From positions 1 to 42,809 of the forward strand of contig JAHDEE010000032.1 in assembly GCA_020629005.1 (NCBI GenBank): a stretch of DNA of 42,809 bases. The letters are read 5' to 3'. How positions within the stretch are numbered: position 1 is the stretch's first letter; each line of letters starts with the position of its first letter. This stretch comes from Chitinophagales bacterium. GTDB lineage: Bacteria; Bacteroidota; Bacteroidia; Chitinophagales; UBA2359. The notes beneath the pieces were generated by a model. The model did no database searches. It saw only the letters and a list, made by a program, of their open reading frames with translations, and was not told the DNA's origin. The position numbers and the translations under genes are program-made. Shown here one piece after another: positions 9,482 through 36,612 of this stretch.

Positions 9482-12400
9482 ATGCTACTTTGTAATAGAA
9501 TTCCCTCTATGAAAATCTTTCTACTTGTCGCATCTGCTGCGCTTGGACAATACGGCCTTTATGGACCCACCTCTGGTTTCCTCCAGGAACTTATAAAAGG
9601 CTATGGCTTCGGCAAATTCTTAGATATCAGCGAGGAGGAACTACGCAAGTTTTTGGTACGTGGACTCTTCGACAACACTGGTACAGTGTTAAATCATGAT
9701 ATTCAACGTGCCATGCGTCGTGCCTACATGAGGGCGATTGGTATACTTAAGGACAAATGCAAAAATGACGAACTAATTGAAGGTCAATCCAGGGTCTCGG
9801 CAATCGCCTTTTTCGATCGGCTTCTCGCAACTGCCGACAATGTCTTCGCCATTGATAAATTGAGTACATCCCAAGTAGAGAAGCTTATCGGTAGTGACCA
9901 AACTTTTCTGGATAAGCTTTGGGAGGAGATTCAGTCAGAAGTTTTTTCTGGCATGCATCCCCTTGTTCGCTTTGAAGATCTGAGTGAAGCAGAGCAGATC
10001 ACGGCTACATCAGTTTATACACCTGAATTCAAAAACCTCATTAAGGAGACACTCTTGGGAACAACTGCATTTTTGTTTGGAGAGGAGTTAAAAAAAGATA
10101 GTACTGAGGGAACCAAAGCCTGGAGGGCATTTCAGAGATCGTTCTTAGAAGGTCTCAGCCATCAATTGACATTGTCGCAGAATCGTGGACTCGATTTTGC
10201 CAGAATTGTAGATGAAAAGCAAAGCAAGAAATTGCAGCAGCTCTTTGTCCTCATGGAAAGCTTAAAGCAAGGGGGAAAACTAGATCGAAGTTTTCTGGCC
10301 ACCGAATTCGCGAATTCCCTCTTGAAACTGCAAGCTAGCATGCATGTGCGTTTTGATAGACTCGAAGTCAAAGTAGACAAGCTGACCTATGCCGTGGCAG
10401 AATTCCTCAAAAGGTCAGAACCTGTCGAGGATAAATTGTATTTTCCTGTTCCTCCTTTACCCAGTAGATATTTTTCGCGACACAATTACATACGAGAAAT
10501 AGGAAACTCGTTGATTGACAGTAACTTCCGGAGTGTGGCAGTTACAAATGAAGATAGATACCAGGGCCTACTAGGGATGGGTGGAATAGGAAAAACAACT
10601 ATTTGCATTGGGCTCGCTCATGACAGAAGGATTCGCAGAAAATTCTCAGATGGGGTAATTTGGCTGGATGCAGGTAGAGACAGGGATGAGGATGGAGTAG
10701 ACCTTGCCACTGATTTTTTTCGATTGCACCGGCAAACGCTCTCTGTAAGGTTGAGTGATTTACAAGATAAAACGCCGAAGGGAGCAACATTTAGCAGAGA
10801 ACGTGCAATTGGTCAGTTGATATTTGAGCTGACCAGAGAGAAGAAATACCTAATCATTGTAGATGACGTCTGGAAGGGCAAACAACTCAACATATTCAAG
10901 ACTCTCGGTCCCGAATGTAGACTATTGGTGACAACTAGAGTTCGGGATGTCATAAGGAAATTAGATGCAAAGGAACATATGGTGAACGTATTAGAACCAG
11001 ATAAGGCGTTGGACTTTCTCTTAGTATATGTAGGGAGGAAAAGAGAAAATCTTCAGGCCAAGGAAAAAGGTGTATTAGAGGAAATTTGCAAAGCAAGCGG
11101 ATTTTTGCCATTGGCACTTGCAATCGTTGGTTCCATGATGCAGGATGGGGACTACTCGCCGGAAGATCTGTTGAAGAAATTGCTAGATGCCAATAATCAA
11201 AAGGACCTGAGAGCTGTCTTCCCGAATTACCTGCCAGGCTCTCTTAGAGTTGCTCTCCAGATTAGCTTCGATGACCTGGGTAACAAGATGGACTCACTGC
11301 AGGAAGCCTATTTGGACTATGTAGTATTTGATCCGCAGGAGCCGATTCCCTCGGCAGCTTTTTTTTTGCTATTGCAGCAACGATTTGAGTCTGAAGAACA
11401 GGCCAGACAAGCAGCAAATTGGCTGGTTCGTAGATCACTGCTCACTAGAGCAGATGGGGTCTATCGGATTCACGATATGAATTATGCTTTTATCGAAGCC
11501 ACTTGTATGGCTGCAAATGAAGATCAGTATCGGCGAATTCAACAGGCACATATTAGTTTGGTTGAGGCATATCGTAAAGAATGCGAGAATATTTGGCACC
11601 GTGGCCCAGCTGATGGTTATTTCTTTAAAGGTCTACAAAAGCACCTTCGAAAATCAGGTAGTTTGGATGAGTTACTTGCTTTGCAGTATGATTACAATTG
11701 GTTGAGAGCAAAACTAGATCATACGACTGGCTCCTTCCTCGTGAAAGACTACCAGATCAATTGTCAAGTATTTAAGGACAGCAATGACATGGCAATATTG
11801 CAACTGGTCCTTGATGCGCTAAAATTATCCAGCTATGCCATCAACAAAGATAGGAGCCAGCTGGAGGGCCAGTTGATAGGGCGGTTGAAGCGATATGAAG
11901 TGCCAGTTATTAAGGAACTACTCAAGCAGGCCAGAGAAAATAAAACGGATCCTTGGTTGAGATTGGTTACGGATACTCTGGTGCCGCCTGGTCAGGAGCT
12001 GAAGCAGATACTAGAAGAGCATGAAGCTGATGTGCGCTGCTTTGATGTAGTGAAGCTACGAAGCGGCTGGAGACTCGCCTCTGGCTCGGATGATTGTGAT
12101 GTCAGGATCTGGGATGTCGAAACAGGTGTTGATCTTCGTTTACTTTCCGGCCATAGCGCAAGAGTAAATGCTATTGTAATTAACTCTTCAAGCTTGCGTA
12201 TTTATTCTGCTTGCGAGAAGGGCGAAATTCGAGTTTGGGCTTTTGATCGAGATCAGGCTCTACAGGTCATTCACACAGGTAGGGGAGCAATTTCCGCACT
12301 GTTGCTGTTGCCAGATGAAAAGACGCTTCTTTGCGGATCCGAAGATGGTTCGATCACAGTTTGGGATATAGACGGAAATCGACAAATGGCAAAAGCAACC

Positions 12401-13864
12401 GCAATTGTAGATGCCTATCAATATGGAGGCGTAGGTGCCTTGGCTCTTAACAGTGATGGAACCCTGCTTGCCTCAGGATGCAATAAGCGCATAGATAAAG
12501 AATATAGTTCGGCTACCGTCCGGATTTGGAATGTGCAAGAAAACTATGCTCTGCACAAAGAACTGGACTATCGTGGCCAAATCAACGACCTTGTATTCAG
12601 TAGAGATAGCCAGAAACTGGTCACTGCAAGTAACGACTTCACTGCAAAAATTTGGGATCTTAATACAGAATCTTTGTTGCACACCCTTAAAACCAAAGAA
12701 GAAGGACGTGAACTTCACTATAGAGCGATCAATAGTCTGGCTGTTTCAACAGACAATCGCTATGTGTTGACTGGAGGCGACGATCATTATGTATTGCTCT
12801 GGAATCTTGAGACAGGAGCATTTGAAAGAGAGATAGGTCAACATTCAAATGCTGTTCATGCAGTGAATTTTCTGACTGAACTTGACCTGATCGTATCTTC
12901 CTCCAATGATTCAACGTTGAGGATTTGGAAATTCGAAAGTGGAGACGGCGATCATAGTAGCGACTTTGAAAAACACAAGGGGTGGGTGCGGGACATTGCA
13001 GTGGATGCTAACAAGGGAATTGCCATCAGTGCTTCTCAAGATGCAACTTTGCGGGTATGGAACCTAGAGCAGAGAGTAGTCACCTTACCGCCTATAGACT
13101 TTCATGATGGTCAGGTGGAAGCCGTATGCTTGCTAGCTCTGTCACCGCTTGCCGCGTCTGCCTCCGTTGACAAGACAATCAAGGTCTGGAATTATGAAAC
13201 CGGAGAATTGATCAACTCTTTCAAAGCACATAAGGAAACTGTTAGCTCGGTCGTGGCTGTGCCGAACTCAAACCGTATTCTATCTGGAGCATATGATGAC
13301 CTGGTTAAGCTTTGGGACCTTGGCGAAGATGGAACCCAAAATCAATTGATAAAGGTGTTTGAAGGTCATGAGAAGCTCCAAAAGCCTTCAAAAGGTATAC
13401 GCCATCTGGCGGTAAATGCTACTGGCACGATGGCAGCATCCGGTGGCGATGATGGTCAAATCATTCTTTACGATCTTCATCAGAATGTGGAGTTGGTGCG
13501 CTGTTCTGCTCATGCATCAACAGTTCGATCTATATCGTTTTCAAAAGATGGCACATTGATAGCTTCTGGTTCGGAGGATCGCAGTGTCAAGGTCTGGTCA
13601 ACAGAAGACTTGGGGCTTATACACACAATAGAAGATCATTACAAGCGAGTAAGAGGAACCCACTTTGTCGCGGGAGATCGTTTTCTTGTATCGCTATCTT
13701 CTGATAAGACGATTAAGGTTTGGGATTTGCACGCTGACTTTTCCCATGTTGCAACATTTTTTGGTAATGGTGCCATCACTTCATTCAAGGCCTTAAGTGA
13801 CCGCCAGTTTATGGCAGGAGAAGTCGAAGGGTACGTTCACTTTCTCACCTTGGAAAATATCTAG
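9482..13864 (+). CDS. STAND NTPase: novel N-terminal domain, NB-ARC, helical linker, 14 WD40 repeats
   Basis: 1,460 residues, with the architecture of Apaf-1-type signal-transduction ATPases, which stay closed until the sensor part binds a trigger and then oligomerise. Residues 1-~330 are mostly helical and match no domain I can name ('LNHDIQRAMRRAYMRAI' near 70-86). NB-ARC motifs follow: P-loop GMGGIGKTT (365-373), Walker B LIIVDDVW (457-464), LLVTTR (481-486), GFLPLAL (540-546) and RIHD (662-665), the equivalent of the MHD motif. A helical linker (~670-840) includes 'QYDYNWLRAKLD'. Residues ~846-1460 form 14 WD40 blades, enough for two seven-bladed propellers. Some bacterial STAND proteins are antiphage sensors; there is no defence gene nearby to confirm that. 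Start uncertain: ATG 9509 is possible. Confidence 0.9.
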   Translation: MLLCNRIPSMKIFLLVASAALGQYGLYGPTSGFLQELIKGYGFGKFLDISEEELRKFLVRGLFDNTGTVLNHDIQRAMRRAYMRAIGILKDKCKNDELIEGQSRVSAIAFFDRLLATADNVFAIDKLSTSQVEKLIGSDQTFLDKLWEEIQSEVFSGMHPLVRFEDLSEAEQITATSVYTPEFKNLIKETLLGTTAFLFGEELKKDSTEGTKAWRAFQRSFLEGLSHQLTLSQNRGLDFARIVDEKQSKKLQQLFVLMESLKQGGKLDRSFLATEFANSLLKLQASMHVRFDRLEVKVDKLTYAVAEFLKRSEPVEDKLYFPVPPLPSRYFSRHNYIREIGNSLIDSNFRSVAVTNEDRYQGLLGMGGIGKTTICIGLAHDRRIRRKFSDGVIWLDAGRDRDEDGVDLATDFFRLHRQTLSVRLSDLQDKTPKGATFSRERAIGQLIFELTREKKYLIIVDDVWKGKQLNIFKTLGPECRLLVTTRVRDVIRKLDAKEHMVNVLEPDKALDFLLVYVGRKRENLQAKEKGVLEEICKASGFLPLALAIVGSMMQDGDYSPEDLLKKLLDANNQKDLRAVFPNYLPGSLRVALQISFDDLGNKMDSLQEAYLDYVVFDPQEPIPSAAFFLLLQQRFESEEQARQAANWLVRRSLLTRADGVYRIHDMNYAFIEATCMAANEDQYRRIQQAHISLVEAYRKECENIWHRGPADGYFFKGLQKHLRKSGSLDELLALQYDYNWLRAKLDHTTGSFLVKDYQINCQVFKDSNDMAILQLVLDALKLSSYAINKDRSQLEGQLIGRLKRYEVPVIKELLKQARENKTDPWLRLVTDTLVPPGQELKQILEEHEADVRCFDVVKLRSGWRLASGSDDCDVRIWDVETGVDLRLLSGHSARVNAIVINSSSLRIYSACEKGEIRVWAFDRDQALQVIHTGRGAISALLLLPDEKTLLCGSEDGSITVWDIDGNRQMAKATAIVDAYQYGGVGALALNSDGTLLASGCNKRIDKEYSSATVRIWNVQENYALHKELDYRGQINDLVFSRDSQKLVTASNDFTAKIWDLNTESLLHTLKTKEEGRELHYRAINSLAVSTDNRYVLTGGDDHYVLLWNLETGAFEREIGQHSNAVHAVNFLTELDLIVSSSNDSTLRIWKFESGDGDHSSDFEKHKGWVRDIAVDANKGIAISASQDATLRVWNLEQRVVTLPPIDFHDGQVEAVCLLALSPLAASASVDKTIKVWNYETGELINSFKAHKETVSSVVAVPNSNRILSGAYDDLVKLWDLGEDGTQNQLIKVFEGHEKLQKPSKGIRHLAVNATGTMAASGGDDGQIILYDLHQNVELVRCSAHASTVRSISFSKDGTLIASGSEDRSVKVWSTEDLGLIHTIEDHYKRVRGTHFVAGDRFLVSLSSDKTIKVWDLHADFSHVATFFGNGAITSFKALSDRQFMAGEVEGYVHFLTLENI

Positions 13865-16745: not shown

Positions 16746-17810
16746 CTATCCTTTCACTTCTTCACCAACCCTTTCAGGTCTCAATTCACGAACCTTGGCG
16801 CCAGCCTGCCACAATTCTGAATTCCTCAGTTCGGCAAGTTCCTCTTCGAGTTTGCTTCGATAGTCCGCTTTGCTATTGGCTTCAATCACCACTTTTGCTT
16901 CTTCACCGCTTGAAACTCTTTCGTACAATTCCTCAAAAACAGGAGTGGTTGCTTCACGGAACTTATGCCTCCAGTCTAAAGCACCTCTTTGGGCCGTAGT
17001 AGAGGTATTGGCATACATCCAATCCATTCCGTTTTCAGCTACAAGAGGCATTAGACTCTGTGTCAACTCTTCCACCGTCTCATTGAAGGCCTCTGACGGA
17101 GAGTGGCCATACTTGCGAAGCGTGTTGTATTGTGCCTCGAACAAGCCAGCCAGCGCACCCATCAGGATGCCTCTTTCTCCTGTGAGGTCAGAAAATACTT
17201 CCTTCTTGAAGTCTGTTTCAAACAGATACCCGGATCCAACGCCTATGCCTAATGCCACTACACGTTCCTGTGCGCGGCCCGTGGCATCCTGGTATATTGC
17301 ATAGCTTGAGTTCAATCCTCGACCAGCCACAAAAAGTCTTCTAAGACTCGTGCCAGATCCCTTAGGTGCTACCAAAATGACGTCCACATCGGGAGGCGGC
17401 ACAATGCCTGTTTGATCATTGTAGGTGATGCCAAATCCATGAGAGAAATAGAGCGCATTGCCGGGCTTAAGCCGCTTTTTCAGTTCTGGCCACTGCGCCA
17501 TCTGTCCTGCATCGCTGAGCAGATATTGGATGATGCTGGCTCGTTCAGCCGCTTCCATAATTGGAAACAGTGTTTCACCAGGAACCCAACCGTCGTTGAC
17601 TGCTTTGTCCCAACTTGGAGAACTTTCTCTCTGCCCTACAATTACATTAAATCCATTGTCTCGTAGGTTCATTGATTGACCAGGTCCTTGCACGCCGTAG
17701 CCAATGACAGCGATGGTTTCATCTTTGAGCACTTCCTGTGCCTTGGAGAGGGGAAATTCATCGCGGGTGACTACGTTTTCTTCTACGCCACCAAAATTGA
17801 TTTTTGCCAT
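16746..17810 (-). CDS. ilvC: Ketol-acid reductoisomerase
   Basis: 354 residues, class I (short) size. It converts acetolactate or acetohydroxybutyrate to the dihydroxy acid with NADPH and Mg2+, the second common step of valine and isoleucine synthesis. Seen here: the nucleotide-binding loop GYGVQGPGQ (37-45) with 'VGQRESSPS' after it, the metal-binding DLTGER (Asp207, Glu211), and the helical domain with 'FNETVEELTQSLMPL' (Glu243, Glu247) and 'YANTSTTAQRGALDW'. It is the last gene of ilvDBNC, 42 bases after ilvN, and ends at the bidirectional terminator. The Pro in the GPGQ part of the dinucleotide loop is unusual compared with the commoner G-x-A-Q-A but should not stop activity. Confidence 0.97.
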   Translation of the reverse strand: MAKINFGGVEENVVTRDEFPLSKAQEVLKDETIAVIGYGVQGPGQSMNLRDNGFNVIVGQRESSPSWDKAVNDGWVPGETLFPIMEAAERASIIQYLLSDAGQMAQWPELKKRLKPGNALYFSHGFGITYNDQTGIVPPPDVDVILVAPKGSGTSLRRLFVAGRGLNSSYAIYQDATGRAQERVVALGIGVGSGYLFETDFKKEVFSDLTGERGILMGALAGLFEAQYNTLRKYGHSPSEAFNETVEELTQSLMPLVAENGMDWMYANTSTTAQRGALDWRHKFREATTPVFEELYERVSSGEEAKVVIEANSKADYRSKLEEELAELRNSELWQAGAKVRELRPERVGEEVKG

Positions 17811-17852: not shown

Positions 17853-18374
17853 TTAGAAGGCATGCATTTCCTCCATGTGTTCCGAGAATTTCTTCATCGG
17901 CTTTGTGATCGCGATTCTGCCTGAACGTACAAATTCCAGCAAGCCAAGGGGTTGCAGCTGATTGAATAGTTCTTGCGTTTCCGCTTTATGTCCAGTCTTT
18001 TCAACGATCAGAAACTCCGGCGAAACAGATAGAATTCGAGCATGATGATGCCGCAGCATTTTCTCTAGATTCAAGCCGTTGGACAATGCGGATATTGGCA
18101 TTTTGTACAAGGCAATTTCCTGATGAACAGTCTCATCGGTTTCGTGATAAAATGCCTTGACTACGTCAACCTGCTTTTCCATTTGTTTGACGATCTTCTT
18201 TACCTGATCCTCGGCGACGTTGATCACGATTGTGAATCGGTGGATGCCTTCGACTTCAGATTCCGAAACCGTCAAACTCTCGATATTAATATGTCGACGA
18301 GTGAGCACCACGGTCACCCGATTGAGTAGCCCTACTTTGTTTTCCGTAAAAACGGATACTGTAAACTCTTTCAT
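17853..18374 (-). CDS. ilvN: Acetolactate synthase small (regulatory) subunit
   Basis: 173 residues. It starts with an ACT domain (~3-75: 'FTVSVFTENKVGLLNRVTVV', 'INIESLTVSESE', 'RFTIVINV') that binds valine and gives feedback control of the large subunit, followed by the usual C-terminal ACT-like half (~80-165). The length matches long-type IlvN/IlvH. It sits between ilvB and ilvC with 42-base gaps on both sides, which fits a single operon and stoichiometric expression with IlvB. Confidence 0.95.
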   Translation of the reverse strand: MKEFTVSVFTENKVGLLNRVTVVLTRRHINIESLTVSESEVEGIHRFTIVINVAEDQVKKIVKQMEKQVDVVKAFYHETDETVHQEIALYKMPISALSNGLNLEKMLRHHHARILSVSPEFLIVEKTGHKAETQELFNQLQPLGLLEFVRSGRIAITKPMKKFSEHMEEMHAF

Positions 18375-18416: not shown

Positions 18417-20147
18417 TTAGCTAAGTCTGATTTGACTTACAGAGGCGCCAGCAGGAATCATAGGAAATACACAGTCCTCTTTCTCCACCATAATCTCCAA
18501 TAGGTAAGACTGCTCACAGCCAAACATTCTGTTGAGTGCATCATCGAGATTCTCTCTCTTATCGACACGCTCAGCATCAATGCCAAAGCCTTTAGAGATG
18601 GCGACAAAATTAGGATTGACCAATTCTGTGGCGGAGTAACGTTTGTCAAAGAACAACTGCTGCCACTGTCGAACCATACCCAAAAACTCGTTGTTCAGAA
18701 TCACAATCTTTACATTGGTTTGAGTTTGCCAGATGGTACCCAATTCCTGCAAGGTCATTTGAAATCCTCCGTCACCAATGATGGCGACTACGTCACGGTT
18801 CGGCGCTCCCAGTTTTGCGCCAAAAGCAGCAGGCAGGCAAAAACCCATGGTCCCAAGACCTCCGGAAGTAATGTTGCCACGGTGTTGTTGGAAACGGGCA
18901 TATCTACAAGCTACCATCTGGTGCTGTCCGACGTCAGTGACAATGATCGCTCTACCGTCGGTACGATCGTTAATACGACGGATGACCTCACCCATAGTCA
19001 TGCCTTCTTTGGATGGATGCAATTCTTTTTCGATGATCATTTCCTGCTCCATCTTCATACAGTCATGAAAGCGTTGTAACCAGGGCTTGTGATTGTTCTT
19101 TTTCAATAGCGGCAATAGAGCCTGCATGGTTACCTTGCAGTCGCCCACCAGTGCAACCTCGGTTTTCACATTTTTATCTACCTCTGCTGGATCGATTTCC
19201 AGGTGGATTACTTTGGCTTGTTTAGCATAGGTATTCAAGTCTCCTGTTACCCTGTCGTCAAAGCGCATTCCGACAGCAATCATCACATCGCATTCATTGG
19301 TCAGGATATTTGGTCCATAGTTTCCATGCATGCCCAACATACCCACATTTTGTGGGTGTTCCGTTTCCAGAGCTGAAAGCCCCATAATCGTCCACGCTGC
19401 CGGAACGCCGGTCTTTTCGATTACTTCTTTTAGTTCCTTTTCTGCACCAGAAATCGTCACGCCATGACCGAACAATAGAAAAGGACGCTTGGCTTTATTG
19501 ATCAATTCAGCTGCTCTCTCAATCTCCGTAGGATTTGCTTTTGGAACTGGCACATAAGATCGCACGTGATCGCATTTCTTGTAGTAATAGTCCAACATTT
19601 CGATCTGTGCGTTCTTGGTAATGTCTATAAGCACGGGACCAGGCCGACCGGAGGCTGCTATGTAGAATGCTTTAGCAAAAATCTCGGGAATCTCGGAAGC
19701 CTTGGTGATCTGATAATTCCATTTCGTAACGGGAAGTGAAATCCCTATTACATCCGTCTCCTGAAAGGCATCTGAACCGATCAAACGCTTTGGCACCTGT
19801 CCTGTGATACAGACAAGCGGAGTCGAGTCAATGAGAGCGTCCGCAATTCCGGTGATTAGATTTGTAGCTCCTGGACCAGATGTGGCTATGCATACACCCA
19901 CTCGACCAGTGGCTCTGGCATATCCCTGAGCAGCATGAACGGCGCCTTGCTCATGACGATTCAGGATGTGTTTTAGTTCTTCCTGATAATCATACATGGC
20001 ATCGTACACGGGCATAATTGCACCACCTGGATATCCAAAAATATACTCCACCTGTTCTTCCAACAGGCATTTTACGATCGCTAGTGCACCAGAGATGTTC
20101 TCTGTGTCTGTAAAGGCACTGCTTTTTTCTTTCGTTAAGGTCTTCAT
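18417..20147 (-). CDS. ilvB: Acetolactate synthase large (catalytic) subunit
   Basis: 576 residues, normal for the thiamine-diphosphate-dependent acetolactate synthase catalytic subunit. It condenses two pyruvates, or pyruvate with 2-oxobutyrate. Motifs: 'GYPGGAIMPVYDA' (38-50), the catalytic Glu66 in 'NRHEQGAVHAAQGYAR', the middle FAD-binding domain with 'GMLGMHGNYGPN' and 'GMRFDDRVTG', and the ThDP/Mg motif 'GDGGFQMTLQELGTI' ending in 'ILNNEFLGM'. The C-terminus 'MIPAGASVSQI' is typical. It lies 57 bases after ilvD. Confidence 0.97.
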   Translation of the reverse strand: MKTLTKEKSSAFTDTENISGALAIVKCLLEEQVEYIFGYPGGAIMPVYDAMYDYQEELKHILNRHEQGAVHAAQGYARATGRVGVCIATSGPGATNLITGIADALIDSTPLVCITGQVPKRLIGSDAFQETDVIGISLPVTKWNYQITKASEIPEIFAKAFYIAASGRPGPVLIDITKNAQIEMLDYYYKKCDHVRSYVPVPKANPTEIERAAELINKAKRPFLLFGHGVTISGAEKELKEVIEKTGVPAAWTIMGLSALETEHPQNVGMLGMHGNYGPNILTNECDVMIAVGMRFDDRVTGDLNTYAKQAKVIHLEIDPAEVDKNVKTEVALVGDCKVTMQALLPLLKKNNHKPWLQRFHDCMKMEQEMIIEKELHPSKEGMTMGEVIRRINDRTDGRAIIVTDVGQHQMVACRYARFQQHRGNITSGGLGTMGFCLPAAFGAKLGAPNRDVVAIIGDGGFQMTLQELGTIWQTQTNVKIVILNNEFLGMVRQWQQLFFDKRYSATELVNPNFVAISKGFGIDAERVDKRENLDDALNRMFGCEQSYLLEIMVEKEDCVFPMIPAGASVSQIRLS

Positions 20148-20204: not shown

Positions 20205-21878
20205 TTAGTGATCCGTTACACATCCAAAGGAGGCGGAGGATACCAGTTTGCTGTACTTGTGCAAGGCACCATTGCTTGCCTTTTTCTCAGGTACTTTCCA
20301 GGCAGCCCTGCGCGCTTCTATCTCCTCGTCCGACAATTTCACGTCCATGACATTGTTCACGGCATCAATAGTAATAAGGTCACCGTCTTGTACGAGCGCC
20401 AGCATTCCTCCTGCAGCTGCTTCAGGAGAAACATGCCCGACAACAAATCCATGACTGCCACCGGAAAAGCGACCATCGGTGATGAGCGCAACCTCCTTGC
20501 CTAGACCTGCTCCCATAATTGCCGCAGTCGGTTTGAGCATTTCGGGCATGCCGGGTGCACCTTTGGGACCTTCATATCGAATCACGATCACATGTCCCTT
20601 TTGCACCTTACCTGAGCTGATTCCCTCAATTGCTGAGAATTCATCGTCGAACACTATAGCAGTGCCTTCGAAAACTTCTCCTTCCTTGCCGGTGATCTTT
20701 GCAACGGCTCCTTGCTCAGCCAGATTGCCGTAGAGAACCTGTATGTGACCGCTGCTTTTGATTGGGTTTGCCAAAGGTCGCATGACATCCTGGCCCTGTT
20801 TCAGGCTGTCGGCAAGTTCCAGATTCTCCCTCATGCTCTTTCCTGTTACCGTGAGACAGTCTCCATGTAGCAGTCCTTCTGAAAGCAAGTATTTCATCAC
20901 AGCCTGACTACCTCCAACGGCATGAAGATCTTCCATCAGGTACCTGCCAGATGGTTTGAGATCCGCAAGTAATGGAGTACGGTCGCTGATGTCCTGAAAG
21001 TCTTTCAAGCTCAAAGGAACATTCACCGTTTTCGCCATGGCCAGCAAATGCAAAACAGCATTGGTAGACCCTCCTAATGCAACGATTGTGGTAATTGCAT
21101 TCTCGAAAGCCTCCCTGGTCATGATGTCTCTTGGTTTTAGGTCAAGCTCCAACAAGCGTCTGATATAGGAACCTATTTGTCCGCATTCTCCTTGTTTATC
21201 GCTACTTAATGCAGGAGCCGATGCGCTATAAGGGAGAGACATTCCCAAAGCTTCAATCGCGCTTGACATAGTATTAGCGGTATACATTCCACCACAAGCG
21301 CCTGCCCCAGGACAAGAGTTCTTGATCACGCCCAGGTAGTCTTCATCGGAAATTTCATCTTTAAATTTTTGTCCATAAGCTTCAAAAGCTGAGACAATAT
21401 TGAGCTTCTTTTCTTTGTAACAGCCAGCATTGATAGTGCCTCCATAGAGCAGTATGCCAGGTCTGTTGAGTCGACCCATAGCCATCATTGCACCCGGCAT
21501 GTTTTTATCACAACCAACTACAGTCACTAAGGCATCATAATAGTGAGCGCCTGCTACGGCCTCTATAGAGTCAGCGATAATCTCTCGGGAAACGAGAGAG
21601 TAGCGCATGCCTCGCGTGCCATTTGATATGCCGTCACTTACACCAATTGTATTGAAAATCAATCCGACCAAATCGCTGCTGCGGACAGATTCCTTCACCT
21701 TGAGGGCCAGATCATTCAGATGCATATTACAGGTGTTGCCTTCGTAGCCTGTACTGACAATGCCGACCTGAGCCTTTTTCATATCTTCCTCGGTCAGTCC
21801 AACCCCATATAGCATTGCCTGAGATGCTGGCTGACTAGGGTCCTGGGTAATTCGCTTGCTGTATTTGTTAAGTTCCAT
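20205..21878 (-). CDS. ilvD: Dihydroxy-acid dehydratase
   Basis: 557 residues from the ATG at 21878 ('[16 protein letters not shown]'). The frame runs open further up to 21998, but that 40-residue extension begins inside the terminator hairpin of the leader, so it is not coding. The enzyme dehydrates the dihydroxy acids to 2-oxo acids, the third shared step of Ile/Val synthesis. The three iron-sulphur-cluster cysteines are present: Cys50 (GNTCNMH), Cys123 (VGCDKNMPG) and Cys195 ([16 protein letters not shown]). The C-terminal '[15 protein letters not shown]' is intact. It is the first structural gene of the operon and is controlled by the two upstream attenuators. Confidence 0.97.
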
Positions 21879-21979: not shown

Positions 21980-22018
21980 AAAAAAAAGCCCCGATCACTC
22001 GAATGATCGGGGCTTTTT
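21980..22018 (-). terminator. ilv attenuator 2: terminator hairpin with competing antiterminator
   Basis: Minus-strand arms AGCCCCGATCA (22014-22004) and TGATCGGGGCT (21997-21987) pair perfectly over 11 bases around a 6-base loop, followed by a run of eight T on the minus strand. The rival arm CGGATGATTGG (22045-22035) can pair with CCGATCATTCG (22010-22000) over 11 positions with two G-U wobbles and so break the terminator. That rival arm overlaps the stop codon of leader peptide 2, so a ribosome finishing the peptide hides it and termination follows. Confidence 0.9.
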
Positions 22019-22038
22019 GTCGCTCATAGCCTTACCAA

Positions 22039-22101
22039 TCATCCGGTAGTCTTCCTAATGACGATAATAATACTGACGACTGTGAACTGGTGATCTCTCA
22101 T
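22039..22101 (-). CDS. ilv leader peptide 2
   Basis: A 20-codon open frame, MRDHQFTVVSIIIVIRKTTG, ending TGA at 22041-22039. Seven of 20 residues are Val or Ile, packed as VVSIIIVI; there is no Leu. Its stop lies inside the antiterminator arm of attenuator 2. This is the layout of a classical ribosome-stalling leader: shortage of charged tRNA-Val or tRNA-Ile stalls the ribosome before the arm, the antiterminator forms and ilvD is read. It is too short for standard gene callers. No strong Shine-Dalgarno is visible, which is common in this phylum. Confidence 0.85.
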   Translation of the reverse strand: MRDHQFTVVSIIIVIRKTTG

Positions 22102-22114
22102 AAAAAGTAATGGG

Positions 22115-22145
22115 CAAAAAAATAGCCTTCCAAAAGTGGAAAGCC
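22115..22145 (-). terminator. ilv attenuator 1: terminator hairpin with competing antiterminator
   Basis: Minus-strand arms GGCTTTCCA (22145-22137) and TGGAAGGCT (22132-22124) pair over nine positions including two G-U wobbles, with a CTTT loop, and are followed by A and seven T. A rival arm GTGGAAA (22179-22173) can pair perfectly with TTTCCAC (22142-22136), extended by G-U pairs. That rival arm starts four bases after the stop codon of leader peptide 1, under the footprint of a ribosome at the stop. The hairpin is weaker than that of attenuator 2. Confidence 0.78.
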
Positions 22146-22182
22146 AGGTCTTATTCATTTGATCTTATAGCATTTCCACCCC

Positions 22183-22233
22183 TCATTTACTAATGACGAC
22201 GACAGAAATGACTATGTTGATTACTTGATTCAT
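22183..22233 (-). CDS. ilv leader peptide 1
   Basis: A 16-codon open frame, MNQVINIVISVVVISK, ending TGA at 22185-22183. Nine of 16 residues are Val or Ile and none is Leu. It lies directly upstream of attenuator 1 and is the first translated item of the ilvDBNC transcript. It shares the 10-base run TCGTCATTAG with leader peptide 2 (plus-strand CTAATGACGA at 22190-22199 and 22055-22064), in the same reading frame and same part of the peptide, which suggests that the two leader units arose by duplication. Confidence 0.85.
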   Translation of the reverse strand: MNQVINIVISVVVISK

Positions 22234-22386
22234 CGCCGTAAAACTAGAATAATTTTTAGAGTTACACAACCTAGCCCCATAAATTTTGAATTTTCTGCAA
22301 AATGACTCTTTGGGTATTTAGTTCGGCTGGTAGCAAATCATGTGCTTGCATTAGCTTATCTTTCGGCACACAATCAAACTGCTTCA

Positions 22387-23394
22387 ATGCTCAGAGTGCT
22401 ACCAATACTTGTACTTCTTGTGTTCTTTGTCCAGGATGTTGAGGGCCAGGAATGTTTGATCTGGAATGGATTCAGCATCGACTGGACCTACAATCACCGT
22501 GTCAATCGACTTGGTAGCTATGTGCAGGGGCAGGAGGTGTACACTACAGGTGCAACCGGGCTCGGTAGAGATAGTTGCCGATTCGAAACTTTCTATTCAA
22601 CACTTGAAGCTGAGCTAAAAACGCAAGAAGTAAAAAAGCGGATTGTGCTGATAGGAGAGGAGCATGAGCGAATCAACAAAAGGTTGATGGTTTCTTTTCC
22701 CCTTACCGGTGAGGACAATAAGATTTACAAAGCCGTTCTCAATGGTTTTGACCTTTTATCGGTTGGTAAGGCTGACAAGCTTCATGATCTTACGGTTCGC
22801 ATTGCTGATCAGCACCTGAGTGCTGATTCAAATCGTTGGGAGTTAAGCGTTGATGTTTCCTTGCTGGTCAATTGCACTACTCCGGAATGTGAAATCTTCA
22901 ATCAGGAAGTGCATTATCAGCTGGACCTTTTCTTCCTGTTGCTTGAGCTGGATGCTGATACTCCACTTGAGGCGATTTATCCCTCACATAGATTTGACTG
23001 GTTTGATGAAGACAAACGTGTCAGGAACGCCTTGTTTTTGCAAACTCGAAAAGGGTACAATCAAGCTGCGATTCAGGGCTTTGAAATTGCTTTGGATCGT
23101 GATCACTGGATTGTGGCTACAGAGTTATCTGCACAGTACAAAAAAGCGGATCATTTTGAAATTGCATTGGAGTATTGGGCAAATTTCTGGAACATGAAGA
23201 AAGACTCTTACCATCGACCCCACTCTCGCTTTTCCAAAGGAATAGAAGGAGAAGCTAAGGTTGCAATTGACCTCCTGCTTATGGTCTTACCAGGTAAGGT
23301 TACCCCTGATAGCTTTGTTGGATCCATCATTTGGCCTGGGAAGAATATCTCTGCCGCAGGAGATGAGGCCGTCATGTTTAAAAAGATTCGATAG
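22387..23394 (+). CDS. Exported protein of unknown function
   Basis: 335 residues from ATG 22387; an in-frame GTG at 22342 would add 15 polar residues before the signal peptide and is less likely. The signal peptide is clear ('MLRVLPILVLLVFFVQDVEG'), with cleavage near GQE. The mature part begins 'CLIWNGFSIDWTYN' and contains a regular mix of helix and strand; the stretch 'ALFLQTRKGYNQAAIQGFEIALD' may be a TPR-like helix pair. I do not recognise the family. It runs divergently from the ilv operon and convergently with the membrane-protein gene, 12 bases away. Confidence 0.75.
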   Translation: MLRVLPILVLLVFFVQDVEGQECLIWNGFSIDWTYNHRVNRLGSYVQGQEVYTTGATGLGRDSCRFETFYSTLEAELKTQEVKKRIVLIGEEHERINKRLMVSFPLTGEDNKIYKAVLNGFDLLSVGKADKLHDLTVRIADQHLSADSNRWELSVDVSLLVNCTTPECEIFNQEVHYQLDLFFLLLELDADTPLEAIYPSHRFDWFDEDKRVRNALFLQTRKGYNQAAIQGFEIALDRDHWIVATELSAQYKKADHFEIALEYWANFWNMKKDSYHRPHSRFSKGIEGEAKVAIDLLLMVLPGKVTPDSFVGSIIWPGKNISAAGDEAVMFKKIR

Positions 23395-30904: not shown

Positions 30905-32227
30905 TTAGAGGAACTCGCCGACAAGCCAGTCTATATCTGTTTTGCTGATGAGCAAGTTGTAGATGGCAGATGTTTGGGCATATTGAGCAGTCAATAGCTG
31001 GTTTTGCAGATTTCGGTAATCCAATGACGTTATCTGTGCTGACTTTAGCCGCTCCTCTGCCATTTCAAGATTTCTTTCCGCAATCTGAATCTGATCCTGG
31101 TTGAGTTTTAGAATCTGTTTTAGATTTTCGTAGTTGACAAGCAGGATGTCTAATTGGTTGCTAAGCTGCATTTGGCTTTCTTCAAGATCCAATTGACTGT
31201 TGCGCTCCCGGATTTTGGCATTTTGCACGTTGGCCTTATTCACTCCTCCATCAAATATTCTCCAACTAGCAGATGCACCGATCAACAGGTTGGTACGATT
31301 ACTCAATTGTCCTTCAAAAGGATCTCCAGTGGCAGGATTATCTTCGAAAAACTTGAAGTAGTTTTCGGCAAATCCCAAATTGCCGTTCAGGCTCACACTG
31401 GGTTTGCGGGCAGTATCTTCCAGCCTGGTATTGATTTGGCTAAGGCGGGCGGCGGTTTCCAGACTTTGCAAGCTGTAGTTTTGCGTTTTTAGCAGTTCCC
31501 GCATCTTTTCCCGATCAATTTCTTCCAGAGTTACTTTCAGCCGTTCAGGATAGGTGAATTCCGTGTTGGTATCCTCGTTTAGCAAATTGAGCAAATTACG
31601 TTTGTTGATCTCGATGAGTTGATTTTGCGAAACCAGATTGGTAGAATCTACGGCAATAGCTTGTTCAAATTGAATGATGCTAAAGGCATTGCTGCCACCG
31701 AATTCTCGCTTCACTTTTTCGTATTCCATTCGATCGCGACTCAATTTAAGCTGTTCTTCGAGCACAATTAGCCGTTCTTGCTGTAGCAAGACATCATAAT
31801 AAGCCTTGATCACATCGCGGATGACATTTTGACTATTGATGGATTGCAGTTGGCGCTGCTGTTCTACCGCTAAATTGAGCTGTTCCTTCGCGATGCGTAC
31901 CCGGCCGCCACCGTACAGCAGCCACTGCGCATTTACAGCTGGGCTGAGACTGGAGATCTGATAAGTCCCATTGAGGAAACTGGCAGGATTGTTATCATTG
32001 ATCAACGTATTTGAAAAGTTGCCCGTCAGATCCACCGTTGGATAGCTGCCAGCACGTCCCCAGGTATTGTTGTTCTCCGCGATCTCAATATTCGTCTCAT
32101 CGATCTTGATTTGAAAGTTGTTTTCCAGTGCTTTGGCGATCGCAGTTTCCAATGTCATTTGCTCCTGGGCATTGGCCAGAGCAGTAATTCCAAAAAGAAG
32201 CAAAGCACAAATTAGTTTGATATCCAT
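30905..32227 (-). CDS. TolC-family outer membrane efflux channel
   Basis: 440 residues, normal for the family. Signal peptide 1-20 ('LICALLLFGITALANA'), then two outer-membrane-efflux-protein repeats made of long helices: 'TLETAIAKALENNFQIKIDE' starts the first, and 'ESQMQLSNQLDILLVNYENLKQ' lies in the second. It would form the trimeric outer-membrane barrel and periplasmic tunnel of a tripartite pump. It is third in the operon, 12 bases after the RND pump gene, so it is a dedicated channel for that pump. Confidence 0.93.
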   Translation of the reverse strand: MDIKLICALLLFGITALANAQEQMTLETAIAKALENNFQIKIDETNIEIAENNNTWGRAGSYPTVDLTGNFSNTLINDNNPASFLNGTYQISSLSPAVNAQWLLYGGGRVRIAKEQLNLAVEQQRQLQSINSQNVIRDVIKAYYDVLLQQERLIVLEEQLKLSRDRMEYEKVKREFGGSNAFSIIQFEQAIAVDSTNLVSQNQLIEINKRNLLNLLNEDTNTEFTYPERLKVTLEEIDREKMRELLKTQNYSLQSLETAARLSQINTRLEDTARKPSVSLNGNLGFAENYFKFFEDNPATGDPFEGQLSNRTNLLIGASASWRIFDGGVNKANVQNAKIRERNSQLDLEESQMQLSNQLDILLVNYENLKQILKLNQDQIQIAERNLEMAEERLKSAQITSLDYRNLQNQLLTAQYAQTSAIYNLLISKTDIDWLVGEFL

Positions 32228-32239
32228 GATGCTTAATGT

Positions 32240-35200
32240 CTAGACCAAAATGTCGGAGAATTTATAAGCTACAAATGCATAAGCGAAGAAAGCAACAAGA
32301 CAAAGAACCGCTGCAACCAGATAGACGGGCATACTGCCGACCTTGGCCGGATTGGCTGGTTCTACTTTTTCCGCGGCAATTCTTTCGCCTTCCCAAAAGG
32401 AAAGCGCGTTGCGTTTGATCTTATTGACCAGCACCAACAATGCCGGTATTAGTACCAGCAAAATGAAGGTGGCCACCATAAGCCCGTAGGCAACAGAAAC
32501 CGCCATCGGTATCAAAAATTTCGCCTGGAAGCTCTTTTCGAGAATTAGCGGATACAATCCCGCAACAGTAGTCAGCGAAGTCAGCAAGATGGGCCTGAAT
32601 CTCGAACGGCCGGCCATCATCACTGCTTCTTCAAATGCTTTTCCTTCGGCTATACGTTCGTTAAAAGTTGTAATAAACACCAATGCATCATTGACCAGTA
32701 TGCCAATGAGTGCAATGACCCCGAGTATGGAGAAAAGACTGATGGGCAAATCTACCCAATAATGCCCAAAGCCTACACCGATAAAACCGAATGGAATCAA
32801 AGCAAAGACGATCAGTGCCTGACTGATGGATTTAAAGGTTAGCACAATGATGAAAAACATGATCATAAAGATCATCGGCATCACCAGACTCATGCTGGCT
32901 TGCGTTTTTGCTGTTTCTCTTTGCTGTCCTTCATAGCCGATCGCCACAGAGGGATATTTGGCCAATATCTCCGGGATGATGGTGTTGGAAATATCCGCAT
33001 TAATATCACTGACCGATGCTTTATCATCCGAAATGTCAGCCTCTACACGCACTTCTCGCTGACCATCTATATGGTTGATATTTACTACTCCGCGTTCTGT
33101 CTTGAAGTTTACTAATTCTCCCAAGGGAACTGCCAATCCGGAGGCGCTACGAATACGCATTTCCGCCAGGTCAGACAAATTGCTCCGGTCTTCAAGTTCA
33201 TAACGCACCCATACGCGCACCTCGTCCTGTCCGCGTTGTAGTCGCTGCACTTCTGCTCCGAAGAAGCCCTTACGCACATTGCTGATAATATCTCGCAAAG
33301 TGAAACCAAGATTGTGTGCCTTCGGTTTGAGTTCAAGTGAGACCTCTTTTAGTCCGACCAGGTTATTGTCGACTATATCGGCCAAACCGGAAATCTCGGA
33401 GAGTCTGTCTTTTAGCTCCTTGATGGCCAGTTTCAGCTCTGAAGGATCCTTACTCAGCAGAGAAACCGAAACCGGCATTCCAAAGATATTTGCCGAGCCG
33501 TAGGTGAGCAACTCAGCCTGAGGAATCGGTCCTACCAGCTCCCGTACCCTTCCGGAAACCATGCGTGCAGTTACCTGTCCCATCTCCTCCGCAGCCACGA
33601 GTGATACCTGCAGGCTTCCCTGGTATGTGCCAGGACCAATTTTCTTTTCAATCTTATTGATTGGCCCCTTGGAGCCATCATAATATTTTTCGCTAAACTC
33701 CTGATTGACGATCTCGGCCTTTCGTTCTATTTCATCCAGAATTTTGAGTGTTTGACTCTCTCTCATACCTGCCGGCAAACGTAGACCTACCGTGAAGCTA
33801 TCTCTAGGCAATACAGGAAAGAAAGTGCCCTTGATTAGTCCTCCTTGCATAGCTCCAACCACCATTAGCAAGCCCGCAACACAGATGGCCACAATCGGTA
33901 AGCTGAAATTTACAGCAAAGCGCAGAATCGGATCGTAGAGTTTGTTCCTCAAAAAGTTCATCACTGAGTCCAGAAATCGACTGACGACACCTGGTTCAGT
34001 CCCTCGCTTTAGCGCCTTGGAATGCGCAATGTGCGCCGGCAATATCAAAGCACCTTCCACTAGCGAGAAAATTAGTGAGAAAATGACCACAATCGCCATT
34101 TCCTTAAAGATATCCCCAAGCCTTCCATCAATGAAGAAGAAGGAGCTAAAGGCCACAACGGTTGTCACAATTGCCGAAAAAACCGCCGGCAATACCTCCA
34201 TCGTTCCATTAATGGCGGCCGTGGTGGCATCTTCTCCCTTTTCATAGTGCTGGTAAATATTTTCCGCAATCACAATGCCATCATCCACCAATATCCCGAT
34301 CACGATGATCATTCCAAACAAGGAGATGACATTGATCGTAACACCCAGCAGAGAAACGCAAAGGAACATACCAGCGAATGAGACCGGAATGGCCAGTGCC
34401 ACCCAGAAAGCCAGACGATAATGCAGAAACATGGCCAGCAAAATCAGTACAATGATGAATCCGATGATGCCATTGTTTTTCAAGAGATTGATTCTGCTAA
34501 TCAGGCTGACACTCCAATCCTGCACTACGTTTGCCTGCACATCCGTATTTTTGGCATTAAAGTCATCAATAAAAGCCATCACACTTTCCTGTATTCCGAG
34601 TAAGTCCTCCTCGATCGTGTTTTGCACACTTATGGTTACGGAAGCCCGATTGTTGAAGTAGGAGCGCTCCGGTGAATCTTCCCATTTGTCACTTACATTC
34701 GCCACATCCGAAACATGTAGAAGCCCACCTTGCTCATTGGAGCGCAGCACGATATCTTCCATGTCGCTTGCATAGTATTCCTTGTTGGAGGCTCGGATTA
34801 GCAACTCCTCTTTTTCAGTTTTTATCGTACCTCCAGTCAACTCAAGATTAGCGCCAGCAAGGGCAGCCACCGCCTGATCAAAGGTCATATTATACCTTCT
34901 CAAATCGGCTTCCCGAAAACTAATTTCAATTTCCTCCTCGGGAAATCCCGACAAACTTACTTTGGAAATTCCCTCAATAGCGAGCAATTCCTTTTCTGCC
35001 AATCGGGCATAGCGCTTCAAAATCCGTAAATCAACATCTCCGTCGATCGAGAAGCTAATTACATTACCAAGACTCTCACGCTTGTATACTCGCAGTGGTT
35101 CCATGCCGACCGGAAAAGAACTCACTGATTCGACTGCATTCTTAACATCCTGCAACACCACATCCGTATCATATCCTTTCAATACCTCAACGGTTACACT

Positions 35201-35470
35201 GCCCGCATTCTCGCTTGAAACCGAGCTGGTGCGCTCTATTCCGGTTACGCCCTTAAGGTTTTCCTCGATCTTGGAAATCACTCCTTCCTCTATCTCAGCA
35301 GGAGAGGAGCCAGGGTAGATAGCCTGCACACTGATGATTCGACTTGGAGTTTCCGGAAAGAAGGTACTCTTCATCTGCCGGGCGCCGATTAGCCCCACAA
35401 TTAGCAGGAAGATCATCAAGATATTGCCCGCAATCTCATTTTTGATAAAGTAGGTGATAATGCCTCTCAT
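32240..35470 (-). CDS. RND-family efflux transporter permease (AcrB-like)
   Basis: 1,076 residues, the usual size, with 12 expected membrane spans: one near 12-30, five after ~335, one near ~525 and five at ~865-1000. The proton-relay pair is seen in 'GILVDDGIVIAENI' (Asp396-Asp397), in the fourth span. Two large periplasmic loops carry the porter domains ('YPGSSPAEIEEGVISKIEE'; 'GMRESQTLKILDEIERKAE'). The second half ends with 'SLTTVAGLYPLIL' and an extra hydrophobic segment near the C-terminus ('YLVAAVLCLVAFFAYAFVAY'), which is not in AcrB. Charge pattern favours the hydrophobe/amphiphile (drug) type over the metal type. Its ATG overlaps the stop of the adaptor gene by 4 bases (ATGA). Confidence 0.94.
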   Translation of the reverse strand: MRGIITYFIKNEIAGNILMIFLLIVGLIGARQMKSTFFPETPSRIISVQAIYPGSSPAEIEEGVISKIEENLKGVTGIERTSSVSSENAGSVTVEVLKGYDTDVVLQDVKNAVESVSSFPVGMEPLRVYKRESLGNVISFSIDGDVDLRILKRYARLAEKELLAIEGISKVSLSGFPEEEIEISFREADLRRYNMTFDQAVAALAGANLELTGGTIKTEKEELLIRASNKEYYASDMEDIVLRSNEQGGLLHVSDVANVSDKWEDSPERSYFNNRASVTISVQNTIEEDLLGIQESVMAFIDDFNAKNTDVQANVVQDWSVSLISRINLLKNNGIIGFIIVLILLAMFLHYRLAFWVALAIPVSFAGMFLCVSLLGVTINVISLFGMIIVIGILVDDGIVIAENIYQHYEKGEDATTAAINGTMEVLPAVFSAIVTTVVAFSSFFFIDGRLGDIFKEMAIVVIFSLIFSLVEGALILPAHIAHSKALKRGTEPGVVSRFLDSVMNFLRNKLYDPILRFAVNFSLPIVAICVAGLLMVVGAMQGGLIKGTFFPVLPRDSFTVGLRLPAGMRESQTLKILDEIERKAEIVNQEFSEKYYDGSKGPINKIEKKIGPGTYQGSLQVSLVAAEEMGQVTARMVSGRVRELVGPIPQAELLTYGSANIFGMPVSVSLLSKDPSELKLAIKELKDRLSEISGLADIVDNNLVGLKEVSLELKPKAHNLGFTLRDIISNVRKGFFGAEVQRLQRGQDEVRVWVRYELEDRSNLSDLAEMRIRSASGLAVPLGELVNFKTERGVVNINHIDGQREVRVEADISDDKASVSDINADISNTIIPEILAKYPSVAIGYEGQQRETAKTQASMSLVMPMIFMIMFFIIVLTFKSISQALIVFALIPFGFIGVGFGHYWVDLPISLFSILGVIALIGILVNDALVFITTFNERIAEGKAFEEAVMMAGRSRFRPILLTSLTTVAGLYPLILEKSFQAKFLIPMAVSVAYGLMVATFILLVLIPALLVLVNKIKRNALSFWEGERIAAEKVEPANPAKVGSMPVYLVAAVLCLVAFFAYAFVAYKFSDILV

Positions 35471-36612
35471 AGCTCCTCATTTACTAGCCGTGCTGCAACT
35501 TTTTGACCCTCGTACAGCCCACTAAGCGGGCTGGTAATTACTGCCAATTCAGTTTCAAATTTTTCCAGATAAGCGTTGTTGGCATCTTTCTTTATCAAGG
35601 ATACCTGCTGTTTAACGATCACAGAATCCTCTACAACATATACATACTTTTGGTCTATCAATTGATCCTTGGGAATCACAATAATTTCTTGTAATCGTTC
35701 AGCCGCCAGCCGGCCCTTGAGGTACATGCCATCACGCAGCTCTCGGCCGCTAACTGATATATAGACAGGCAGATTTTGGGTCGTTGGATCAATTACCCGA
35801 CTGATCCGACTAACTTTTCCGGTATATGATTTTCCCAGCTCAGCAGACTTTAGCTCCACGCTTTGCCCCACTTTTATAGCTGCTATATCCGACATGGCAA
35901 TAGGAGCACTAAGCTCGTAGCGGCTCGTATTCATCATTGTGCCCAGGTTTGCTCCCGGACTTACCAGCTGGCCTCTATAGGTATTTGCTCTGGTTACTAC
36001 ACCACTAAAAGGGGCATAGATCTGATATTTACCCTGCTGGTTTTCCATACTCTTTATGGAATAGTAGAGGTTAAATATGTTTTTTCCCGCAATAAAATAC
36101 TTTTCCGTATCCGAACTCACCTCCGGTAGCGGCCTAAGATTGCGTTTCTCATCAAACTCGTCCAAATAGCGCTTCCATTTATCGAAAGCTGCAGGATGAT
36201 CAAACTTCAAATCAGGCATGCTTTGCGCAATGATGGTAAAGAGATTGCTGCGTTGAGCCAGCAAATTCAGTCTGGCATTTTCTCCATCAATATCAAAGAG
36301 CAAATCCCCCTCACTAAAGTAGGTCCCTTCCTTAAAGGGTTTTGAAGTATCCTGCAGTTGACCCTGTACCTCGGCAAACAAATCTATTTTCTCATAGGCT
36401 GACAATCGTCCATCAAGCTCGATCTCGTTCAGTACCTCACCCGCTTTAAGCACCTGGGTTTCCACAGTTCGAAGCATCGTCTTGCCCCCTTTCTTTGCAT
36501 CCACCGTCGACTGCTTTTTGGAAGAAGTCTTCAGATAAGCCATACCTCCAAGTGCCAGAATCACGAAGGTCAAAATCAAAGAAATGATCGTCTTTCTTCT
36601 GCCTTTATTCAT
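35467..36612 (-). CDS. RND efflux periplasmic adaptor (membrane fusion protein)
   Basis: 381 residues. An N-terminal membrane anchor (~9-27, 'IISLILTFVILALGGMAYL') is followed by a lipoyl-like half-motif ('YEKIDLFAEVQGQL'), a short helical hairpin (~105-185), the second half-motif ('YQIYAPFSGVVTRANTYRGQLVSPGANL') and beta-barrel regions. It bridges the inner-membrane pump and the TolC channel. First gene of the three-gene operon; the inverted repeat at 36628-36657 lies 16 bases upstream of its ATG. Confidence 0.93.
   Translation of the reverse strand: MNKGRRKTIISLILTFVILALGGMAYLKTSSKKQSTVDAKKGGKTMLRTVETQVLKAGEVLNEIELDGRLSAYEKIDLFAEVQGQLQDTSKPFKEGTYFSEGDLLFDIDGENARLNLLAQRSNLFTIIAQSMPDLKFDHPAAFDKWKRYLDEFDEKRNLRPLPEVSSDTEKYFIAGKNIFNLYYSIKSMENQQGKYQIYAPFSGVVTRANTYRGQLVSPGANLGTMMNTSRYELSAPIAMSDIAAIKVGQSVELKSAELGKSYTGKVSRISRVIDPTTQNLPVYISVSGRELRDGMYLKGRLAAERLQEIIVIPKDQLIDQKYVYVVEDSVIVKQQVSLIKKDANNAYLEKFETELAVITSPLSGLYEGQKVAARLVNEEL

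Follow-up and report, generated by a model that had tools for sequence, protein, structure and literature searches.

The ilvDBNC operon on the minus strand of the window (the whole 42,809-nucleotide stretch of DNA analyzed here) is preceded by two complete units in series. In each unit an Ile/Val-rich mini-ORF is followed by an intrinsic terminator, and an arm located at the stop codon can pair with the 5' half of that terminator (Table 1). The parts of both units are certain from a direct reading, and the operon is very probably run by two serial ribosome-operated attenuators that both sense charged tRNA-Ile and tRNA-Val. A first-pass annotation of this DNA had described such a tandem pair, with each competing arm lying at or just past the stop codon of its own peptide. 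The parts and their order are confirmed here, the arms lie where that annotation placed them, and all of its coordinates match the minus-strand reading within a few bases.

Table 1. Coordinates of the ilvDBNC operon and of its leader in the window (energies in kcal/mol)
Feature	Position	Strand	Remarks
Predicted Bacteroidota-type promoter	22234..22269	-	-33-like TTG 22269-22267, 20 nt, -7 box TAGTTTTA 22246-22239 (5/6 matches)
Leader peptide 1 ORF	22183..22233	-	ATG 22233, TGA 22183; MNQVINIVISVVVISK, then stop; 16 residues with 5 Val and 4 Ile
Antiterminator arm A1	22167..22181	-	directly 3' of stop codon 1; core GUGGAAA 22179-22173
Intrinsic terminator 1	22116..22146	-	hairpin 22146-22123, then U7 (22122-22116); -12.0
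Leader peptide 2 ORF	22039..22101	-	ATG 22101, TGA 22039; MRDHQFTVVSIIIVIRKTTG, then stop; 20 residues with 3 Val and 4 Ile
Antiterminator arm A2	22027..22045	-	overlaps stop codon 2
Intrinsic terminator 2	21980..22015	-	hairpin 22015-21986, U run to 21980; -22.2
ilvD, dihydroxy-acid dehydratase, first operon gene	20205..21878	-	ATG 21878; TIGR00110, 737.8 bits
ilvB, acetolactate synthase large subunit	18417..20147	-	TIGR00118, 715.4 bits
ilvN, acetolactate synthase small subunit	17853..18374	-	TIGR00119, 110.2 bits
ilvC, ketol-acid reductoisomerase, last operon gene	16746..17810	-	TIGR00465, 308.1 bits

The gene order ilvD-ilvB-ilvN-ilvC was assigned by NCBIfam equivalogs, and the leader sits between ilvD and a divergent ORF on the plus strand (22342-23394). 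Each unit places in the 5' leader of ilvDBNC a short ORF in which codons for the pathway products abound, with an intrinsic terminator between that ORF and the first gene. When folded, the full leader is more stable than every one of 200 dinucleotide shuffles (z -4.25). Terminator 1 was listed by a simple consensus scan of the minus strand, which missed terminator 2, probably because the stem of the latter runs into A/T tracts; a folding scan recovered it. Searches with Rfam covariance models gave no match anywhere in the window, and hence none to a T-box or other cis-regulatory RNA in Rfam. Elsewhere in the window we observed a predicted protein of 1460 aa that combines an NB-ARC domain with many WD40 repeats in an NLR-like (STAND) architecture (9482-13864), an ordinary RND efflux set of adjoining outer-membrane efflux protein, AcrB-like pump and HlyD-like adaptor (30905-36612), and a predicted protein of 1267 aa in which several Kazal-type protease inhibitor domains are accompanied by a Por_Secre_tail secretion sorting tail (38506-42309).

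Each arm pairs preferentially with the terminator of its own unit. With the arm region (A) defined as the stretch that begins 24 nt upstream of the 3' end of the stop codon and runs up to the terminator, and the 5' half of the terminator as B, A1:B1 reaches -14.6 kcal/mol (z -3.1 versus shuffled arms) against only -11.7 for A1:B2, and A2:B2 reaches -17.8 kcal/mol (z -3.8 versus shuffled arms) against only -10.3 for A2:B1. The same specificity extends to 130 units, in which own A:B pairs average -13.2 kcal/mol while permuted terminators average -9.06 (sd 0.22), with none of 2000 permutations falling below -9.77. A shorter A region, reaching back only 9 nt from the same point, gave a weak cross-pairing result because many arms begin within the last codons. 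Among the 22 arms of 11 tandem leaders, all but two prefer their own terminator over that of the sibling unit: the second unit of locus L055 has no convincing arm, and A2 of locus L006 fits B1 even better than its own terminator because the two units of that leader are near copies of one another.

How the position of a ribosome would act on this pairing was addressed by folding. Equilibrium folding of the complete leader with ribosome masks favored the terminator at nearly every ribosome position, so the choice of antitermination must be kinetic and be made during RNA synthesis. Equilibrium folding was therefore replaced by a snapshot fold of the RNA downstream of the ribosome footprint and ending before the 3' half of the terminator. 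In these snapshots the mean pairing of B with upstream RNA over 130 units is 0.92 for a ribosome stalled on the Ile/Val codons, 0.17 for one that has reached the stop codon and 0.75 when no ribosome is present. The corresponding values for the window are 1.00, 0.47 and 0.76 in unit 1 and 1.00, 0.34 and 0.95 in unit 2, such that, as computed, a ribosome at the stop codon would mask the B-pairing arm, with residual pairing, and one stalled earlier would leave it free. By the identical procedure, E. coli ilvL, trpL, leuL and thrL give 0.81-1.00 when stalled and 0.00-0.12 at the stop codon. Shuffled spacers still give 0.77 stalled versus 0.30 at the stop codon, a moderate to weak discrimination, and the argument is accordingly carried by the arm permutation test and by conservation. 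That each unit works as an attenuator is very likely. According to the folding model, most Bacteroidota units lack a strong protector helix (1:2), any such helix in the window units being at best partial. The high ribosome-free pairing implies that most units would permit read-through if no ribosome were present, and that the off state would depend on efficient and prompt initiation and translation; in the only other genome of the genus (G001), ribosome-free pairing of unit 1 is 0.30 in the snapshot.

In the proposed mechanism, RNA polymerase would begin just before peptide 1, onto which a ribosome would load immediately. With abundant Ile- and Val-tRNA, the ribosome would arrive at the stop codon and cover A1, B1 would pair with the 3' half of the terminator, and transcription would end at approximately 22116. 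A ribosome delayed in the Ile/Val run would leave A1 free, A1:B1 would form before the 3' half exists, and the polymerase would continue. Past the U run, the same test would be repeated with peptide 2, A2 and terminator 2. As ilvD would be reached only by polymerases passing both terminators, read-through would be multiplied, with the leak approximately squared and a steeper response than that of one unit; for illustration, a 10% leak per unit would become 1% for the pair. Such a joint output of the two units is likely.

To place the tandem arrangement in context, we surveyed 238 non-redundant ilvD upstream regions of up to 2 kb, drawn from whole-genome searches at the order and class level and a contig scan. 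The detector, which was designed after the window had been seen, called a peptide with at least 6/7 Ile/Val/Leu followed by a hairpin and T run within 110 nt. At least one unit was found on 126 of 238 sense strands and on 11 of 238 antisense strands. Ten loci are strict tandems (L001, L002, L006, L053, L055, L072, L104, L105, L240 and L248), among them Chryseobacterium MYb7 (L053), an Ignavibacteriae record (L055) and Tenacibaculum caenipelagi (L072), with the caveat that names of MAGs may be wrong. An eleventh, L018, was detected manually and has a shorter U run at its terminator 2. Relaxed criteria add six more: L030 (Myroides), L042 (a Cyclobacteriaceae MAG), L043 (Chryseobacterium lathyri), L100 (Lutibacter), L101 (a Runella MAG, in which the tandem is weak) and L137. 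Tandem ilvD leaders include those of genomes G151 (L104), G238 (L105) and G268 (L137), and the total of 17 spans Saprospiraceae-like, Flavobacteriaceae, Chryseobacterium, Cyclobacteriaceae, Runella and Ignavibacteria records. In 16 of the 17, hairpin 1 and the second ATG are 14-34 nt apart, placing the second start just past the U run, as expected if translation of peptide 2 has to await escape from terminator 1. The hisG loci of the order (L254-L283) carry a single His-rich leader attenuator in 14 of 30 cases and a tandem in none of these 14, and leuA upstream regions yielded nothing convincing.

These counts bear on the simplest alternative, in which Ile/Val-rich frames and hairpins merely coincide in A+T-rich intergenic DNA. 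Short hydrophobic frames are common, and the antisense strands do produce 11 matches in 238 regions. At that antisense rate, however, a second unit within 250 nt is expected in approximately 0.7 of 126 loci against the 10 strict tandems found (P ~4e-9), and the excess of 126 over 11, the specificity of arms for their own terminators and the conservation described below refute coincidence, which we regard as extremely improbable.

Both units of the window are found at orthologous places in G001 (L002), the sole same-genus genome, whose IlvD is 88% identical. Unit 1 of G001, with peptide MINSINIVISVVVIIN and GGCCTTCCAATATGGAAGGCC, is 82% identical to unit 1 of the window, and its unit 2, with peptide MLQHLVVIISVIIVVRLKTG and AGCCCCGATCATCCAGGATGATCGGGGCT, is 76% identical to unit 2. 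Between the two genomes an A-U pair in A1:B1 is replaced by G-C with both sides changed; such two-sided compensatory changes are few by pairwise counting, a result that depends on the alignment. Two other genera of the family, represented by G004 (L006) and G009 (L018), likewise carry a pair of units, and the searched region of the remaining family members showed one unit or none. A single unit only is present in L024 (IlvD 78%), the closest relative outside the genus. By IlvD, the nearest named relative is an uncultured Saprospiraceae MAG (78%), and the host of the window is a Bacteroidota genome. Further afield, tandem pairs are kept between two Chryseobacterium species and across Tenacibaculum, G513 and Lutibacter. 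The lack of conservation that the first-pass annotation had named as a refuting outcome did not occur: peptides and helix pairs of both units are kept in the same-genus genome, and other genera and families also contain tandems. The two units of a locus resemble one another with z mostly 4-9, a similarity confounded by shared Ile/Val codons and terminators; L006 alone, with z 15.6, looks like a clear recent duplication of units.

The conservation of unit 1 also weighs on whether a single unit, most likely unit 2 near ilvD, does the work, with the other reduced to a weak accessory or a duplicate in decay. Terminator 1 is the weaker of the two (-12.0 versus -22.2 kcal/mol), unit 1 of the window retains 0.47 antiterminator pairing once the ribosome has reached the stop codon, and many relatives, L024 as the next closest among them, manage with one unit. 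A decaying copy is nevertheless difficult to reconcile with the retention of the peptide, arm and terminator of unit 1 in G001 along with the matched change in A1:B1, with tandems in which unit 1 equals unit 2 in quality (L072, L240 and L104), or with the persistence of pairs in Chryseobacterium and in Tenacibaculum, G513 and Lutibacter. We consider a single working unit unlikely and favor two serial attenuators.

Serial action further presupposes that transcription enters ahead of unit 1. A promoter-like box precedes that unit (Table 1), and the box position rule of PMC9723704 predicts a transcription start at approximately 22234, a single base upstream of the peptide 1 ATG. Judging from the sequence, peptide 1 may be almost leaderless, and such a near-leaderless start would suit repression by prompt translation. 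At the equivalent place G001 carries TTTG-19-TAGATTTA, and in both G001 and L053 the predicted start coincides with the ATG of peptide 1. More broadly, a perfect TAnnTTTG box is present in the 80 nt ahead of 28 of 119 first or only units (24%, against a background of 3.5%), and a 5/6 box with a -33 element before 66 of 119 (against 11.6% in random stretches of the same DNA); boxes of first or only units end mostly ~15-20 nt before the ATG. The second units of tandems have a perfect box in 0 of 11 cases and a 5/6 box with a -33 element in 2 of 11.

Were each attenuator served by a promoter of its own, the two units would act in parallel and not in series. The window does have TTTG-21-TACTTTTT directly before peptide 2, but this weak box matches at just 5/6 positions, a grade that occurs together with a -33 element by chance at the background rate given above, ends at the start codon, and is absent in same-genus G001 and in most other tandems. 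An internal promoter, which the first-pass annotation had named as a way for the first unit to be irrelevant, is thus not indicated by comparison of boxes: no conserved box lies between the units, with 0/11 perfect boxes before second units versus 28/119 before first or only ones. Parallel action from two promoters is highly improbable, and the comparison favors serial units behind one promoter.

The two units also appear to respond to the same signal. Over the 17 tandems, peptides of first units average 6.5 Ile and 2.8 Val and those of second units 6.3 Ile and 2.4 Val, and both residues are present in 16 of 17 and 15 of 17 peptides, respectively. With Ile and Val in each unit at like composition, both switches would hear one common signal. 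The peptides of the window lean in different directions at their ends, peptide 1 being Val-heavy (SVVVIS) and peptide 2 Ile-heavy (SIIIVI), as would be expected if one unit sensed mainly Val and the other Ile in a two-input gate like that of mgtCBR. Both residues nonetheless occur in each window peptide and the mean composition of tandem peptides is equal, making a division of signals very unlikely. The first-pass annotation had called the output AND-like; serial multiplication is retained as the predicted outcome, but two-input logic is a poor description because both units sense identical amino acids, and "pseudo-cooperative, lower leak" fits better.

Codon use in the leader peptides differs from that of the genes they precede. 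Across the peptides of all 130 units, GTC accounts for 39% of Val codons versus 12% in ilvD genes and ATT for 70% of Ile codons versus 51%; in the window, GTC makes up 7 of 8 Val codons. A single tRNA-Val species is possibly the actual sensor. The window peptides contain no Leu codon. In the whole genome of the window (G000, 97% complete), no hisG match was found and the leuA-family match is weak and partial; this organism may be auxotrophic for His and Leu while retaining Ile and Val synthesis.

Ribosome-mediated attenuation by leader peptides is classical for ilv, leu, thr, trp and his operons, as in E. coli ilvL-ilvXGMEDA. The units described here share with ilvL-type attenuators a codon-rich peptide, alternative pairing of the 5' half of the terminator, an intrinsic terminator and a cognate biosynthetic operon, and the response to ribosome position agrees in the snapshot fold test. 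They differ in that the classical systems have one unit per operon whereas here two complete units stand in series with their own arms and terminators, and in that most Bacteroidota units appear to lack the strong protector helix, such that the off state would need a ribosome at the stop codon.

The only published tandem leader-ORF attenuator that we found is the Salmonella mgtCBR leader (mgtM/mgtP), which responds additively to ATP and proline through stem-loops unlike intrinsic terminators, and whose authors term it a singular example (PMC3641672). That leader likewise contains two serial short ORFs, each linked to alternative hairpins; in contrast, the ilvDBNC leader reads identical amino acids twice and has two intrinsic terminators. 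Two serial same-signal units with one terminator each are also the plan of tandem riboswitches, for which a pseudo-cooperative and more digital response to a common ligand has been described (PMC12452182), and of tandem T-boxes, whose mode of action is listed as unknown (PMC7583486). These bind a ligand or tRNA through aptamers, whereas the sensor here would be a peptide and its ribosome. Within the same phylum, clues to leader-peptide attenuation upstream of amino-acid operons come from Flavobacterium psychrophilum, elements of a like kind for which the main text does not mention a tandem arrangement (PMC9723704).

We found no earlier description of two serial same-signal leader-peptide attenuators in the open-access literature. 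The statement of the first-pass annotation that it knew of no such case therefore holds, within that literature, for serial units sharing a signal, and fails for tandem attenuators in general, since mgtCBR is published (PMC3641672). Leader-peptide attenuation itself is known; the double switch seems not to have been described before.

Taken across the survey, serial same-signal attenuation is probably a recurrent feature of ilv operons in Bacteroidota, as well as Ignavibacteria, that has been repeatedly gained and lost (~13% of attenuated ilvD leaders here) and that multiplies read-through, providing pseudo-cooperative, low-leak control by translation alone as a ribosome-sensing counterpart of tandem riboswitches. 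The survey documents the breadth of leader-peptide control of Bacteroidota ilv operons, including in a window that no Rfam model matches. Serial units also permit a clean test, as either can be removed and the effect on leak, dynamic range and steepness followed. Attenuation is the textbook case of a single switch read by a ribosome, and two same-signal copies kept across several lineages would extend it. If this reading is true, bacteria would sharpen or deepen attenuation simply by repeating the switch, in the manner of tandem riboswitches.
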